Shown here piece by piece: positions 1 to 4,266 of a stretch of 5,213 nt of DNA. Position numbers and translations under genes: made by a program. Under the pieces are notes generated by a model. That model was not told the DNA's origin and searched no databases. It worked only from the letters and a program-made list of their open reading frames with translations. The DNA is from Candidatus Lithacetigena glycinireducens (lineage in GTDB: Bacteria > Coprothermobacterota > HKB111): the NCBI GenBank assembly GCA_018725485.1, contig QLUP01000077.1, positions 1-5,213 on the forward strand, in the 5' to 3' direction. Numbering within the stretch: position 1 is the stretch's first letter; each line of letters starts with the position of its first letter.

Positions 1-602
1 ACTTGGTTAATTTTTGTTAAATTTGGCATTAAATATTCTCTCGGAATAATTTTCTCGTTTATGATTTTTGCTTTCCATGTTGTTACCATCGTTTGTCCTG
101 ATATTTTGGGTATAGAAGATTCAATTATAGGGCAGGGGATAAACGATTTTTCATTAAGTATTGCCTCTGCTAATATTTTATCACCGCTTGTTTCAGCAAT
201 AATAGCATCTTCAAGTCTGCGTGTCTCAGCCTCTTTTTGTGCTAAGTTCACAAGTCTTGTTTCTTCTGTTTTGCATTTAGCTTCTTCTGCTAAATTCCAA
301 TTTACCATTTCTTTGTTAATATGCTTTTTTAATGGTATGAGTTTTTCTAATTCGGCCGCTCTTGCTGATGTCAATGCTTTATGGGCAGCATTAGCTTTTT
401 CGCAAAGAGGGTCAAAAAAAGCTTTAATTTTTTTCTCTAGTGCATTAATAGTTTTAAACATCTCTCCTGCTTGTATATAAGTTTCTGCGTTTACTACCTT
501 AAAAGTTAAGACTTGATTATCAATAGCAATAAATTCTCGTTTTACTTCTTCTGGTATCATAATCGCATTTTCTACATCATTTGATTTTTTAATTTTTTGC
601 AT
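1..602 (-). CDS. Phage coiled-coil protein of the recombination cluster, partial (C-terminus beyond window)
   Basis: The frame opens at ATG 602-600 and has no stop before the window edge, giving 200 residues of an incomplete protein. The start is fixed by AGGAGG at 612-607, 4 nt upstream. Residues 45-135 are charged, Glu/Lys/Ala-rich and helical, with a motif AFFDPLCEKANAAHKAL near 61-77, so a long coiled coil is likely. A compact C-terminal part follows, containing TTWKAKI (174-180) and IPREYLMPN (186-194). From memory, this layout (helical N-half, then a T-W-K and P-R-E-Y-L-P block) recurs in unnamed phage proteins encoded beside annealing proteins and exonucleases. The biochemical role is unknown; an accessory to recombination or ssDNA handling is inference from neighbours. 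It is the last visible gene of the operon and lies directly after the homing endonuclease. The family resemblance is moderately sure; that it is a real gene is very likely. Confidence 0.82.
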   Translation of the reverse strand, partial: MQKIKKSNDVENAIMIPEEVKREFIAIDNQVLTFKVVNAETYIQAGEMFKTINALEKKIKAFFDPLCEKANAAHKALTSARAAELEKLIPLKKHINKEMVNWNLAEEAKCKTEETRLVNLAQKEAETRRLEDAIIAETSGDKILAEAILNEKSFIPCPIIESSIPKISGQTMVTTWKAKIINEKIIPREYLMPNLTKINQ

Positions 603-606
603 ATAT

Positions 607-612
607 CCTCCT
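607..612 (-). promoter_or_regulatory. Shine-Dalgarno site of the coiled-coil gene, overlapping the endonuclease stop codon
   Basis: The minus strand reads TAGGAGGATATATG. The TAG (613-611) ends the homing endonuclease and its last two bases are the first two of AGGAGG. The spacer to the ATG at 602 is 4 nt, which is short but workable. The endonuclease gene therefore ends exactly at the translation signal of the next gene without destroying it. Confidence 0.75.
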
Positions 613-1126
613 ATTTTATTTTATCTATACATTGTGAGGCTGATTTTCTAATATCTTTTTCCCAAAACCTAAAAACTTTATAGCCCTTAAAATGTAGAAC
701 AACATCCTGTGCTATATCTTTACCTTTATTTTTTCTCTTTGAATGCCAATAATCCCCATCACATTGAATAATTCTTTTATCCGGTAGCAGGAAATCTACA
801 AGAGCAATGCCTTCAATAGGGGCATGTTTTAGGTAAGGAATATTTCTTTTAATAAGTTCATTCTCAATAGCAATTTCTATGGAAGTATTTTTTTGTTTTG
901 AACGTTGCATACTCCAAATACCATGACATCTATTAGAACAAAAATTATTTTTTCTAATCACCGAAGGTCTTACATATTCTTCTTTTCCACATACTTTACA
1001 TATCTTTTTTACTCTCTTTGCTCGGATAGGTGCACGAATATTTTTCATGGTTTCTGCTATTTTTTGTTTATGTGATTCCGTAAAGGGATCAGGAGATTTT
1101 CTATTAGGAAATTTAATCCCAATCAT
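611..1126 (-). CDS. Vsr/DUF559-like homing endonuclease, nuclease-domain portion
   Basis: This 171-residue frame is the catalytic half of a probable free-standing homing endonuclease. Residues 1-28 end in a NUMOD3-like helix (TESHKQKIAETMKN), a DNA-binding module common in homing nucleases. Residues 43-67 hold C43-x2-C46 and C63-x3-C67, a likely zinc finger. Residues 81-160 resemble the Vsr/DUF559 branch of the PD-(D/E)XK fold: S82-I-E84 on a helix, V-D111-F, then QCDGDYWH with H128, D137 and D141, and GYKVFRFWEKD near the end. The layout recalls the EDxHD family (I-Bth0305I type), but that assignment is tentative. No convincing SD precedes ATG 1126. The frame continues upstream through TAA 1153-1151 into the NUMOD3 frame, so this start is probably secondary or non-functional. 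The DNA is visibly more AT-rich than the genes upstream, as expected for a mobile gene. It would cut phage DNA to spread itself. Confidence 0.8.
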   Translation of the reverse strand: MIGIKFPNRKSPDPFTESHKQKIAETMKNIRAPIRAKRVKKICKVCGKEEYVRPSVIRKNNFCSNRCHGIWSMQRSKQKNTSIEIAIENELIKRNIPYLKHAPIEGIALVDFLLPDKRIIQCDGDYWHSKRKNKGKDIAQDVVLHFKGYKVFRFWEKDIRKSASQCIDKIK

Positions 1127-1150
1127 CGCTTTTCTAATTTTTTCAATGTG

Positions 1151-1372
1151 TTAAGTTGATAATTTTCTACCCCGCAGTGCTTCACTTATTTTTCTTTTAG
1201 CTTCTTCCGTATATTTGTGTCCTAGCAACGCTTCACTTATTTTCTTTTTAGTTTCTTCCGTATGTTTATGTCCTAAACTATTTTTTTTACCTTTCAATGC
1301 ATTACTTAATTTTAGTTTCGTTTCTTCGGAAAATTTTCTTCCTACATTAATAGTATGTCCTCTACTAAACAT
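1151..1372 (-). CDS. NUMOD3-repeat N-terminal fragment of the homing endonuclease
   Basis: This 73-residue frame carries NUMOD3 repeats with the pattern G-x-K-x-(S/T)-E-E-x-K-x-K-(L/I)-S-x-A-L-x. Three full 17-residue units lie at residues 11-27, 34-50 and 51-67, with a six-residue insert (28-33) between the first two. A fourth begins at G68 and is broken after T73 by TAA. NUMOD3 modules bind DNA in homing endonucleases and have no catalytic role, so alone this is a targeting domain without a nuclease. The ATG (1372-1370) lies inside the last codons of the upstream nuclease gene, which ends 8 nt later; the only SD-like sequence is a weak purine run. The frame is the same as the nuclease-domain frame downstream, and the eight codons between them complete the fourth repeat. 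I read it as the 5' part of one broken gene, although a separate small DNA-binding protein cannot be excluded. Confidence 0.75.
   Translation of the reverse strand: MFSRGHTINVGRKFSEETKLKLSNALKGKKNSLGHKHTEETKKKISEALLGHKYTEEAKRKISEALRGRKLST
1172..1273 (-). repeat. Two adjacent 51-bp direct repeats encoding NUMOD3 modules
   Basis: Units 1172-1222 and 1223-1273 align without gaps and match at 42 of 51 positions by eye. Each encodes a 17-residue NUMOD3 unit. More diverged copies lie at 1292-1342 and 1121-1171, the latter containing the stop codon. The high DNA identity of the central pair suggests a recent in-frame duplication. Confidence 0.75.
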
Positions 1373-1949
1373 AATTTTCTTTTTTCCACTGTTGTAATGT
1401 TAATGCTGAAAGAAAAACGGATAACCCTTTCTGTAATTCCCGTGCATTGACAGGTTTTAGATTATATTTTCCATTGTTAAGGTAAAGATTCATCCCAGAT
1501 AGGATAATAATCCCCGATACCCGCAGTAATTCCATATACGCTGCAAGCTGGATAGGATGCCAGGGAGCAAAACTGCCTATTTTACAGTCTATTACAGTCA
1601 TGCTTCCATTCAAATAACCCCATAAATCAGGTGTGCCTGCAAATTTATGCAAGTTGTGATACATAGGTCTTTCAAACCCCTCTACTTTGAACCCTGTATC
1701 TTTCAAAAACTTTTCAAACCCCTGGAGAAAAGGTTCAAGCTGAGGGTCAAGGTTATCCCTATCAAGATTATCCTCAAGGTGTAATTTAATGGCTTGGTGG
1801 AGATATTTTCCCCTTTTCATGTGCCATTCATTATTACCTTGATAATTTATTAACCCCTCAGCCTGAAGAATTTGAGTTACAGAGGGTAGGATTTGACCAT
1901 TAGAAAGTGAATATGTATGTGTTTCAGGGTCAAATCTAAGTTCAAGCAT
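1365..1949 (-). CDS. PD-(D/E)XK nuclease, RecB/Cas4-like phage recombination exonuclease
   Basis: This 194-residue protein has the motif set of RecB/Cas4-like PD-(D/E)XK nucleases. An N-terminal FDPETHTYSL...LPSVTQIL block typical of phage members is followed by RGKYLH with H51, AGTPD with D108, ID-x-K with D121 and K123, and QLAAY giving the QxxxY motif (Q134, Y138). These residues would bind Mg2+ and cut DNA. By analogy with lambda Exo and YqaJ-type enzymes it probably resects double-stranded ends to expose single strands for the annealing protein encoded upstream; strand polarity cannot be told from sequence. Its ATG shares one base with the stop of the annealing gene (TAATG), which suggests translational coupling, and AAGGA lies 9 nt before the start. 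The usual K-T-G after the catalytic lysine reads K-I-G here. The length and the terminal QQWKKE look normal for the family, so the downstream homing endonuclease has not truncated it. Confidence 0.87.
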   Translation of the reverse strand: MLELRFDPETHTYSLSNGQILPSVTQILQAEGLINYQGNNEWHMKRGKYLHQAIKLHLEDNLDRDNLDPQLEPFLQGFEKFLKDTGFKVEGFERPMYHNLHKFAGTPDLWGYLNGSMTVIDCKIGSFAPWHPIQLAAYMELLRVSGIIILSGMNLYLNNGKYNLKPVNARELQKGLSVFLSALTLQQWKKENYV

Positions 1950-2845
1950 TATATAGTGTCCTTTTTATCTTCGGTTTTACTTTCGGTTTGGACTTGAAAC
2001 ATACAAACTGCTCTGTCTTCACATATTGTAGTTTCATCTACATAGCTTGATAAACTGCAGGTGAGTGGATTCCCAGTGCAGCCTTCAAACTTTATTGCTA
2101 TGAGGTTATTACCTTTTTCACTTGCCTGATAGACAATTTCAACTGGCTTGCCTATCTTTGTGGCAGCAATATCGTGCAATGTTTTTGAAAACGTGTTATA
2201 CCATATACTGTCAGCAAGGATTCCATACAGCGTCCATACTTTATTTCCTTTTTTACCTTCCTTACTGGATACCTTTTCTATTACAGCCTTGATTGTGATA
2301 CCTTCGGCATCTGTTGTTTGTGTCTGTTTTTTAGCTTGCGGTGGCATTATGGGGGGCTTGTTCTGCGTCATGTCCTGCATTTCCTCTGCTGGTGTAGCCC
2401 TGTATCCTGCAAGCACAACAACCCATGCAAGCACGTTTCGGAGTGCTTTCGCACAGGCTCTTGTTTGCGCCATGCTCCTAAGTTGAAATAATGGTTTGTC
2501 CTTCCAGTTTGGTTCGTCATTGAGGCACATTGCCTCTGCTGCGCTGATTTCCATGCCATCGGAAGTTTTTATAGCTACCGCCTTAGCCTCAAAACCCTGA
2601 ACATTGCCATAATCTATATACTGTGTTTGGGTTATTTTGGCAGTGATACCATAGAATCTGCCGACTGTCTGCCAGTCCTCAAATTCCAGGTATTGCTCAC
2701 CACCTATTATTATTGGCTTCTTCTTTTTGCCAATAATATCCGCTAATGCCCTTGCTGCCTCTTGAGCCTCTGCTAATACCTGCTCTGGCGGTCTATTTAT
2801 TGCTATGTCGCCATGAGTTTCATATGCTACCAATTCTTTTGCCAT
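1949..2845 (-). CDS. Putative single-strand annealing / ssDNA-binding recombination protein
   Basis: The predicted protein has 298 residues from ATG 2845. This start is preferred because AGGAGG lies 9 nt upstream (2860-2855); an in-frame ATG 36 nt further up has no such site and would add a lysine/arginine-rich leader. Residues 45-158 form the conserved core: EFEDWQTVGRFYGI, AEAMC, MAQTRACAKALRNVLAW and the signature WVVVLAGYRATPAEEM. I recall this core from phage proteins next to RecB-like nucleases; a relation to Erf/Rad52-type annealing proteins is my inference. A Pro/Gln-rich linker (159-180) leads to a segment (181-254) whose beta pattern suggests an OB fold. The tail has four cysteines (C256, C263, C275, C281), possibly a metal site, and an acidic end. 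It follows the acidic microprotein by one base and overlaps the nuclease start, so the three are probably co-translated. Role: coating or annealing ssDNA made by the nuclease. Confidence 0.82.
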   Translation of the reverse strand: MAKELVAYETHGDIAINRPPEQVLAEAQEAARALADIIGKKKKPIIIGGEQYLEFEDWQTVGRFYGITAKITQTQYIDYGNVQGFEAKAVAIKTSDGMEISAAEAMCLNDEPNWKDKPLFQLRSMAQTRACAKALRNVLAWVVVLAGYRATPAEEMQDMTQNKPPIMPPQAKKQTQTTDAEGITIKAVIEKVSSKEGKKGNKVWTLYGILADSIWYNTFSKTLHDIAATKIGKPVEIVYQASEKGNNLIAIKFEGCTGNPLTCSLSSYVDETTICEDRAVCMFQVQTESKTEDKKDTI

Positions 2846-2846
2846 A

Positions 2847-2951
2847 TTATTTGTCCTCCTTTTCTTCTTCTTCTTTCTCATCAGGTTCGTCGTATTCTTT
2901 GCTGTTTTCGTATTTCAAAGCCCTGATTGCATCAAGTTTATCCTCTGTCAT
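2847..2951 (-). CDS. Acidic 34-residue microprotein
   Basis: A short gene with all translation signals in place. ATG 2951-2949 overlaps the TGA of the zinc-ribbon gene as ATGA. AGGAGG lies at 2964-2959, 7 nt upstream, and the TAA (2849-2847) ends one base before the ATG of the annealing protein. The peptide starts MTEDKLDAIRALKYEN and ends in a run of Glu and Lys (EEEEKEDK), encoded by a GAA-rich tract that also supplies the SD of the next gene. The first half could form a short amphipathic helix and the tail is strongly acidic. Function is unknown. It may be a small partner of the annealing protein, or a leader whose translation delivers ribosomes to the next start. The overlaps and SD make it more than a chance frame. 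Confidence 0.65.
   Translation of the reverse strand: MTEDKLDAIRALKYENSKEYDEPDEKEEEEKEDK
2855..2860 (-). promoter_or_regulatory. Shine-Dalgarno site that sets the annealing-protein start
   Basis: AGGAGG lies 9 nt before ATG 2845 and inside the last codons of the acidic microprotein. It rules against the longer in-frame start at 2881, which lies upstream of this site and would translate the purine-rich tract as a poly-lysine leader. Confidence 0.75.
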
Positions 2952-3151
2952 TTGTTAGCCTCCTCTGTTTTGGTCTTTCTTACATAAGGGCGCTCTTTTT
3001 TCCTATCCCAATACGGACTTCTGCATTTGGGGCACGTCCGCACTTCTGTTTTTCTTGGAAGCCACTCATGTAGACATCTTTTGCAAAGAAGCTGTTTGAG
3101 TTCTATGTTGAACCTCTTTGCATTTGAAAGATTTTCGCTGGTTAGAGACAT
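2948..3151 (-). CDS. Small zinc-ribbon protein
   Basis: This 67-residue basic protein has a clear zinc ribbon: C23-x2-C26 (LCKRCLHEW) and C40-x2-C43 (CPKCRSPYWDR), with tryptophans following each knuckle. The pattern C-x2-C-x-H-x-W-x-P-R...C-P-x-C-x-S-P-Y-W resembles small zinc ribbons found singly in phages and prophages, whose function is not established; nucleic-acid binding is a reasonable guess. The tail is Lys/Arg/Glu-rich and probably disordered. The start is supported by AGGAGGAGG (3166-3158), 6 nt upstream of the ATG, and by a strong promoter about 25 bp further up, making this the first gene of the recombination operon. The TGA overlaps the ATG of the next small gene. Because it comes first, it may be an early regulator or a recombination accessory; this is inference. 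Confidence 0.82.
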   Translation of the reverse strand: MSLTSENLSNAKRFNIELKQLLCKRCLHEWLPRKTEVRTCPKCRSPYWDRKKERPYVRKTKTEEANK

Positions 3152-3175
3152 TGTTTACCTCCTCCTTTTCACTTA

Positions 3176-3204
3176 AGTATAGCATATACTATTAGATTTG
3201 TTAA
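3176..3204 (-). promoter_or_regulatory. Sigma-70-type promoter of the recombination operon
   Basis: On the minus strand TTAACA (3204-3199) is followed after exactly 17 bp by TATACT (3181-3176), with TGC just before it as an extended -10. Transcription should begin near 3169, about 18 nt before the zinc-ribbon ATG and just upstream of its SD. A copy of the octamer TATTAGAT lies inside the spacer (3190-3197), where a bound repressor would block polymerase. Confidence 0.75.
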
Positions 3205-3215
3205 GCTAAAAATAT

Positions 3216-3230
3216 CATTGTAAATCAATG
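3216..3230. repeat. Small inverted repeat upstream of the recombination promoter
   Basis: CATTG and CAATG flank a 5-bp AT spacer, just upstream of the -35 box. With only five base pairs per arm it could be chance; position alone suggests a possible regulator site. Confidence 0.3.
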
Positions 3231-3241
3231 GTTTTGTAGCA

Positions 3242-3280
3242 ATCTAATATGCTTATATTAATATTTATCTGATATTAGAT
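3242..3280. repeat. AT-rich inverted repeat, candidate operator or weak transcript-end structure
   Basis: Nine-base arms (3242-3250 and 3272-3280, reading ATCTAATAT / ATATTAGAT) surround a 21-nt loop that itself contains the palindrome ATATTAATAT. The repeat spans the stop of the 86-aa gene and lies about 40 bp upstream of the recombination promoter. No T-tract follows on the minus strand, so it is a poor terminator. The arm sequence recurs inside the promoter spacer, which favours a protein-binding site. Confidence 0.5.
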
Positions 3281-3518
3281 GAAGGTCTCTATCATCTTCT
3301 GGTTCATCTCCGCATGATGTGCTTCGTAGGTCGGCAACTAAATCGTTTCTTCTAACTTCAGCCAGCTCTAACGATATTCTTAGTGCTGTGTTAAGTTCTA
3401 AATTGAGAGGATATTTTTCTATTAGTCCTTTGTGAAGAAGAACTGCTTCCTCTAAGTCCCAAATTTCATCCAAAATTAAATTAAGGTCTCTATAATTAGT
3501 TGTTTTTGAATCAGTCAT
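3258..3518 (-). CDS. Hypothetical small helical protein
   Basis: An 86-residue protein that I do not recognise. ATG 3518 is chosen because AAGGAGGAGG ends 5 nt upstream; a GTG six bases earlier in the same frame lies inside that SD and is unlikely to be the start. Residues 10-64 are rich in Leu, Glu and Ala with helical spacing (ILDEIWDLEEAVLLHKGLIE, then ALRISLELAEVRRNDL), so two amphipathic helices forming a hairpin or dimer are likely. The C-terminal 20 residues are acidic (GDEPEDDRD). No catalytic motif or signal peptide is seen. It is the last gene of the upstream operon, follows a GC-rich hairpin, and its stop falls within the AT-rich inverted repeat before the next promoter. Confidence 0.72.
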   Translation of the reverse strand: MTDSKTTNYRDLNLILDEIWDLEEAVLLHKGLIEKYPLNLELNTALRISLELAEVRRNDLVADLRSTSCGDEPEDDRDLHLISDKY

Positions 3519-3546
3519 TTTCACCTCCTCCTTACGGGTTTTTTAA

Positions 3547-3573
3547 GGGAGCAGGTATCCATTGCCTGCTCCC
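3547..3573 (-). other. Intergenic stem-loop 1
   Basis: Nine-base-pair stem GGGAGCAGG/CCTGCTCCC with a 9-nt loop, between the 110-aa gene (stop 10 nt before) and the SD of the 86-aa gene (13 nt after). On the minus strand it is followed by TTAAAAAACCCGT, not a T-tract. The CCCGT could alternatively pair with ACGGG at the base of the stem, giving a competing fold near the SD. Confidence 0.7.
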
Positions 3574-3581
3574 GTATAGTT
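3563..3581. repeat. Direct repeat copy 1 (partner at 3958-3976)
   Basis: TGCCTGCTCCCGTATAGTT here matches 3958-3976 at 18 of 19 positions. It covers one arm of stem-loop 1 plus the bases on the stop-codon side, so the conserved block extends beyond the stem. Confidence 0.65.
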
Positions 3582-3583
3582 AT

Positions 3584-3916
3584 TTAGCTTTTCATCTCAT
3601 CTACCCTACCCCAATACTTTTTTAAGAAAGGGTCTGTCAGATGCGATAGGCTTCGTTGTGCTTCCTCAACAGACATTCCCGCGAATCCCATCTGATATCC
3701 GAGAGTTTCGAAGTTGGTAATTTTTGTGGTATGGTTCATAGGAACTCCACGGCTCTGAAGACGGTCCTTACTATAATAATTGCAGAGCCCGTGTTGATAG
3801 CCCCGCCAGAATTTCACGAGGATGGGGATGTAGAATCTCTCATGTTTCGGCAGGTTTGCTGACTCAGCCAGTCTTCCCGCCTTTTCTATATTACGTCTGA
3901 ATTCTGTTTGTTCCAT
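3584..3916 (-). CDS. Hypothetical 110-residue protein with two GYQxG motifs
   Basis: The frame is open further upstream, but the start is placed at ATG 3916 because GAGG (3927-3924) lies 7 nt before it and a longer version would read through a perfect palindrome. The protein is basic to neutral with no recognised domain. Two similar glycine motifs occur, FWRGYQHGLCNYY (mid-protein) and LGYQMGFAGMS (about 30 residues later), suggesting an internal duplication or a paired helix turn. The C-terminal part (VEEAQRSLSHLTDPFLKKYWGRV) looks helical. No signal peptide or membrane segment is visible. It is the fourth gene of the upstream operon, flanked on both sides by stem-loops with the same stem sequence. 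Function unknown. Confidence 0.72.
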   Translation of the reverse strand: MEQTEFRRNIEKAGRLAESANLPKHERFYIPILVKFWRGYQHGLCNYYSKDRLQSRGVPMNHTTKITNFETLGYQMGFAGMSVEEAQRSLSHLTDPFLKKYWGRVDEMKS

Positions 3917-3938: not shown

Positions 3939-3968
3939 GGGAGCAGGCACATATATGTGCCTGCTCCC
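3939..3968 (-). other. Intergenic stem-loop 2, perfect 30-nt palindrome
   Basis: Fifteen bases pair perfectly with the next fifteen, with no loop; the outer nine match the stem of stem-loop 1 and the centre is CACATATATGTG. As RNA it would form a long hairpin with a small open loop. It starts 12 nt after the stop of the 78-aa gene and ends 11 nt before the GAGG of the 110-aa gene. It is followed on the minus strand by TCAAAAGAAAAG, so no terminator T-tract. Confidence 0.8.
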
Positions 3969-4236: not shown

Positions 4237-4266
4237 GGCGGGCTCAGCCAGTATGCTGAACCCGCC
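4237..4266 (-). other. Intergenic stem-loop 3
   Basis: Twelve-base arms (4237-4248 and 4255-4266) pair with one G-T/G-U type mismatch around a 6-nt loop; on the minus strand the stem begins GGCGGGTTCAGC. TTAAAAAA and then the SD of the 78-aa gene follow within a few bases. No T-tract follows the stem on either strand. Confidence 0.72.

Follow-up and report, generated by a model that had tools for sequence, protein, structure and literature searches.

A nonsense codon in the NUMOD3 repeats probably disables or much weakens a free-standing EDxHD homing endonuclease gene between two phage recombination genes

The homing cycle predicts that function is lost after fixation (PMC1654191), and the homing endonuclease genes of phages are described as unstable, with frameshifts, variable stops, deletions and one gene split into two ORFs (PMC10448857). 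Phage enzymes carry an extended, modular DNA-binding region attached to the nuclease (PMC3943268). I-Bth0305I (PDB 3R3P), the type member of the EDxHD homing endonucleases, with a Vsr-like catalytic domain, is treated among the group I intron endonucleases (PMC3943268). In Vibrio phage ICP1, gp115/gp116 is a homing endonuclease gene that a frameshift has divided into an HNH nuclease ORF and an AP2 DNA-binding ORF (PMC10448857). The gene described here lies in a single contig of 5213 bases, referred to as the window, from a 1.24 Mb draft genome of 204 contigs. Similar to I-Bth0305I it encodes a Vsr-like catalytic domain, and as in the phage enzymes this nuclease was combined with an extended modular DNA-binding region. 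Unlike I-Bth0305I, however, it sits between two genes with no detected intron, and it carries an in-frame stop. The division of nuclease and DNA-binding ORFs by one small mutation recalls ICP1 gp115/gp116, although here the parts are EDxHD and NUMOD3 and the mutation is a nonsense codon. We favor, at a probability of roughly three in four, the reading that a free-standing EDxHD homing endonuclease gene, with five N-terminal NUMOD3 repeats and a zinc-finger-like linker, has suffered a real nonsense mutation by which its homing is abolished or strongly reduced.

All main ORFs of the window are on the minus strand and the genes match phage families (Table 1). They are transcribed in the order PHROG 19042 gene, PHROG 298 exonuclease, NUMOD3 ORF, nuclease ORF and PHROG 10477 gene.

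Table 1. Parts of the interrupted gene and its neighbours, in window coordinates
Feature	Position	Strand	Evidence or remark
Whole interrupted homing endonuclease gene	611..1372	-	254 codons including internal and final stops
Upstream ORF, 73 aa, three complete NUMOD3 units and start of the fourth	1151..1372	-	PF07460, E 5.8e-21
In-frame TAA, unit position 7 of fourth NUMOD3 repeat	1151..1153	-	translation
Remainder of fourth repeat ahead of first ATG, HIEKIRKA, without Shine-Dalgarno	1127..1150	-	
Downstream ORF, 171 aa: end of fourth unit, fifth unit, zinc-finger-like region, EDxHD nuclease	611..1126	-	
PHROG 298 exonuclease, complete, upstream neighbour	1365..1949	-	phrog_298, E 3.6e-26
PHROG 10477 gene, exonuclease-annotated, downstream neighbour, runs off contig	3..602	-	
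PHROG 19042 gene, precedes exonuclease	1949..2845	-	syntenic in viral relatives

Translation of 1390-608 on the minus strand gives one frame with a sole internal stop, reading ...GRKLST-stop-HIEKIRKAMIGIKF..., in which the TAA at 1153-1151 occupies codon 74 out of 254 in 1372-611. This bears out the observation of a first-pass annotation that the NUMOD3 ORF (1372-1151) and the nuclease ORF (1126-611) share a register and are split by one TAA. Random codons of the same base composition would be expected to hold ~23 stops per 253 (P of one or none ~8e-10), and the remaining two minus-strand frames contain 20 and 37; 1372-611 is thus one coding frame with one interruption. One in-frame stop where homologues stay open is one of the marks of a nonsense pseudogene, and the gene shows it.

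The stop falls within a series of 17-residue NUMOD3 units. Units 1-3 read GRKFSEETKLKLSNALK, GHKHTEETKKKISEALL and GHKYTEEAKRKISEALR, the fourth is GRKLST-stop-HIEKIRKAMI with the TAA at unit position 7, and the fifth, GIKFPNRKSPDPFTESHKQKIAETMK, is a looser match to the repeat. Among 123 NUMOD3 units from relatives, 89 have Glu at position 7 and the others A, R, S, K, D or G; the fifth unit of the interrupted gene itself has Ser there (PFTESHKQKI). The residue replaced by the TAA was therefore most likely Glu, to judge from the aligned units, although Ser, Lys and others occur at this position, so that the loss of a conserved glutamate proposed in the first-pass annotation is likely but not certain.

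The downstream ORF matches nucleases of the DUF559/MTES_1575/Vsr type in a profile search. It contains a CxxC...CxxxC zinc-finger-like region at residues 43-67, followed at about 78-171 by the EDxHD nuclease with E84, D111, H128 and D137. Against solved structures, phmmer found 3r3p_A (I-Bth0305I, E 1.6e-7). An AlphaFold2 model of the nuclease (mean pLDDT 89) used with Foldseek also placed 3r3p on top (E 2e-5, TM 0.73-0.77 by target length), the next matches being Vsr (1cw0/1vsr). Both sequence and predicted fold support homology of the catalytic domain to the EDxHD/Vsr-like domain of I-Bth0305I. Over 71 relatives E84, D111 and H128 are invariant and D137 is conserved in at least 90%, and the window has all four. 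Alignment to 3r3p suggests that these residues form the catalytic motif, with Ala in that chain opposite D111 and H128; the chain is perhaps an inactive construct. What the present copy lacks is the full modular DNA-binding region in the nuclease polypeptide, as the TAA severs three complete NUMOD3 units and leaves the nuclease ORF with a partial and one complete unit. Because of this separation the gene is, to judge from its sequence, probably a broken rather than a functional member of the EDxHD homing endonucleases.

Relatives were gathered in two IMG/VR scans and one GTDB genome scan, giving 75 that are non-redundant. NUMOD3-like units and the nuclease lie in one ORF in 33 of these, a count obtained with a home-made NUMOD3 profile that likely missed divergent units (the units of L004 and L006 score with Pfam only). 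NUMOD3 and nuclease as two intact genes, one after the other, would contradict the earlier claim that this was once one homing endonuclease gene. This arrangement was found in 0 of the 75; together with the single-ORF relatives this leaves the claim well supported. The closest full-length relative found, L002 (IMGVR_UViG_3300031862_000042; 52% identity in the nuclease), has NUMOD3 units, zinc-finger-like region and nuclease as in the window, but in an uninterrupted single ORF of 250 codons. Its contig also carries a terminase-like ORF (2096-3796) with an apparent intein at the ATP-binding motif (GGKR-C...HN-SGKT, by eye). L003 and L018 (4634-5137) have, ~1.2 kb away from the EDxHD ORF, a second NUMOD3 endonuclease ORF that is apparently HNH-type; L003, a viral contig, and L018, a Patescibacteria draft genome, encode identical endonuclease proteins.

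Four of the 75 relatives carry interruptions, and no two of these genes are broken at the same place. L122 (IMGVR_UViG_3300018046_000112, 2060-2842) has an in-frame TAA just ahead of the nuclease domain, in L006 (2515-3300) an in-frame TAG separates the catalytic Glu from the catalytic Asp, L111 (2177-2737) is broken by frameshifts, and L118 (2029-2839) has a frameshift in the NUMOD3 region, with another assembly, L119, identical over the break. The layout of L122 is that of the window, with a NUMOD3 ORF, an in-frame TAA and a DUF559-type nuclease ORF in one register. It differs in that the stop lies ~12 residues before the nuclease domain rather than within a repeat, and in that no ATG precedes the catalytic Glu; L006 likewise has no ATG ahead of the catalytic core. 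The same stop, which the first-pass annotation had suggested looking for in related phages, is not among these four, but breaks do recur, and their unrelated places argue for recurrent decay rather than a conserved split.

Related phages also reveal the site of insertion. In these the PHROG 19042 gene, the exonuclease and a PHROG 10477-like gene are consecutive, and in six of them (L022, L024, L025, L026, L032 and L052) the site is empty, the exonuclease and the next gene overlapping or lying within ~12 nt. The overlaps are mostly ATGA or TAATG. The PHROG 10477 neighbour alone as query found no relatives, and its counterparts in the related phages were located by synteny beside the PHROG 19042 gene. 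The window has the endonuclease gene precisely at this point, with the exonuclease on one side and the PHROG 10477 gene on the other. A location within a self-splicing intron was considered and rejected, since no Rfam family reached its gathering score in the window and the exonuclease is complete to its C-terminus. Given the empty site in related phages and the lack of an intron family in the window, the gene is a free-standing phage homing endonuclease gene inserted at the exonuclease/next-gene junction, and this junction would have been its homing target. Both the insertion at this junction and the assignment of the nuclease to the EDxHD, I-Bth0305I-like family are additions to the first-pass annotation.

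The downstream PHROG 10477 gene has its own Shine-Dalgarno sequence, AGGAGG (upstream ...AAAATAGGAGGATAT-ATG), and at 602-618 the TAG stop of the nuclease overlaps this ribosome-binding site. The overlap suggests that the inserted gene supplies or preserves the start signal of its neighbour. Elsewhere in the window, GC-rich inverted repeats lie between small genes at 3544-3576, 3939-3968 and 4237-4266. Their arms are GGGAGCAGG...CCTGCTCCC, twice and with one perfect 15-bp palindrome, and GGCGGGCTCAGC...GCTGAACCCGCC, so that two of the three have an arm sequence in common; they are perhaps terminators or regulatory hairpins.

The intact protein would have bound a long target through its NUMOD3 repeats, and its nuclease would have cut the unoccupied exonuclease/next-gene junction, leading to copying of the gene into it. 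With the point nonsense mutation, translation would now end in the fourth NUMOD3 repeat. The NUMOD3 ORF, whose ATG at 1372 has a weak Shine-Dalgarno sequence only, overlaps the end of the exonuclease gene by 8 nt, so its translation probably depends on coupling to that gene and would produce a 73-residue NUMOD3 peptide without the nuclease. No Shine-Dalgarno sequence precedes ATG 1126, confirming the earlier observation, and reinitiation there would give at most a trace of a repeat-poor 171-residue nuclease. As the TAA ends translation, ATG 1126 has no Shine-Dalgarno sequence and three of the five units are gone, homing is probably lost or strongly reduced in the present copy. This is consistent with the homing cycle (PMC1654191) and with the published instability of these genes (PMC10448857), and would put the copy in the decay stage of the homing-endonuclease life cycle.

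How long ago the break occurred is less tightly constrained. Of the columns conserved at 85% or more, 0 of 17 are changed in the window, a comparison biased in its favour because the relatives were gathered with the window as query. The intact columns count against decay and point either to a young break or to a nuclease part still under selection. In simulations limited to substitutions, 8% of copies were without a second stop and kept all 15 near-invariant residues after 30 neutral substitutions, and ~3% did so after 40. Up to ~35 neutral substitutions (~5% of the gene) are thus compatible with the present sequence, a span that indels would shorten somewhat. The first-pass annotation had the gene broken "recently"; this is a fair guess, but weakly supported when so many substitutions are still allowed.

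The verdict "broken" is itself the best reading, and the unrelated breaks in four of 75 relatives speak for it, but it has to be weighed against an error of base calling or assembly, in which the TAA exists only in this metagenome-assembled contig and the phage itself carries an uninterrupted gene. In favor of such an error, one substitution is the sole defect and the near-invariant residues are all intact; the contig is one small fragment of a draft genome in 204 contigs; and no near-identical second copy of the locus that would confirm the stop was present in viral contigs, GTDB genome contigs, phage and plasmid records or related genomes, one of the same genus. We nevertheless regard an error as unlikely. 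Nothing suggests poor sequence, as the neighbouring ORFs are all open; the mutation is a substitution and does not fall in a homopolymer, which makes it the least common kind of consensus error; and broken relatives are not rare, one frameshifted copy being identical in two assemblies. Slightly less credible is a leaky gene, in which reinitiation at ATG 1126 or read-through would yield a little working nuclease and homing at a reduced rate. The ATG is only 24 nt after the TAA, where L122 and L006 by contrast have none ahead of the catalytic core, the downstream ORF still encodes the entire catalytic domain together with the zinc-finger-like region and the fifth NUMOD3 unit, and the conserved columns are undamaged. 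Against this, most neighbouring genes have the good Shine-Dalgarno sequence that ATG 1126 lacks, the product would miss three of the five binding units, and none of the 75 relatives has kept the arrangement.

Readings in which the two ORFs are meant to be separate fare worse. It is very doubtful that the stop was selected as a regulatory split, in which the coupled upstream ORF would supply a NUMOD3 peptide able to bind either the target or the region of the gene itself, while reinitiation would provide a low, tolerable dose of a nuclease with a short binding arm. A true two-gene split, in which the two products assemble or the NUMOD3 peptide controls expression, appears more improbable still. 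Each part does form a complete ORF within an operon, and the ORF for DNA binding is coupled to the exonuclease, but an orderly two-gene arrangement is absent from all 75 relatives, the interrupted ones break at unrelated places, and the stop lies inside a repeat and not between domains. As a conserved arrangement, with no example among the non-redundant relatives, the split was rejected. Also rejected, with a negligible chance of being correct, was decoding of the TAA as an amino acid in the phage or its host, for which nothing speaks except that the frame continues past it. The first-pass annotation had judged recoding unlikely on the ground that neighbouring genes end in TAA; its judgement holds but its ground is incomplete, as TAA, TAG and TGA all terminate neighbouring genes on the contig, which makes the stronger case. 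In addition, no tRNA gene is present in the window.

Taken as a real nonsense mutation, the window copy clearly shows a free-standing EDxHD homing endonuclease gene caught in its decay phase, with the empty site visible in related phages, and alongside it other members of the family have been broken independently at other places. It represents an ordinary stage of the life cycle and leaves knowledge of homing endonuclease genes unchanged. Automatic annotation, however, would list a NUMOD3 protein and a Vsr-like nuclease as two separate products of what used to be a single gene.
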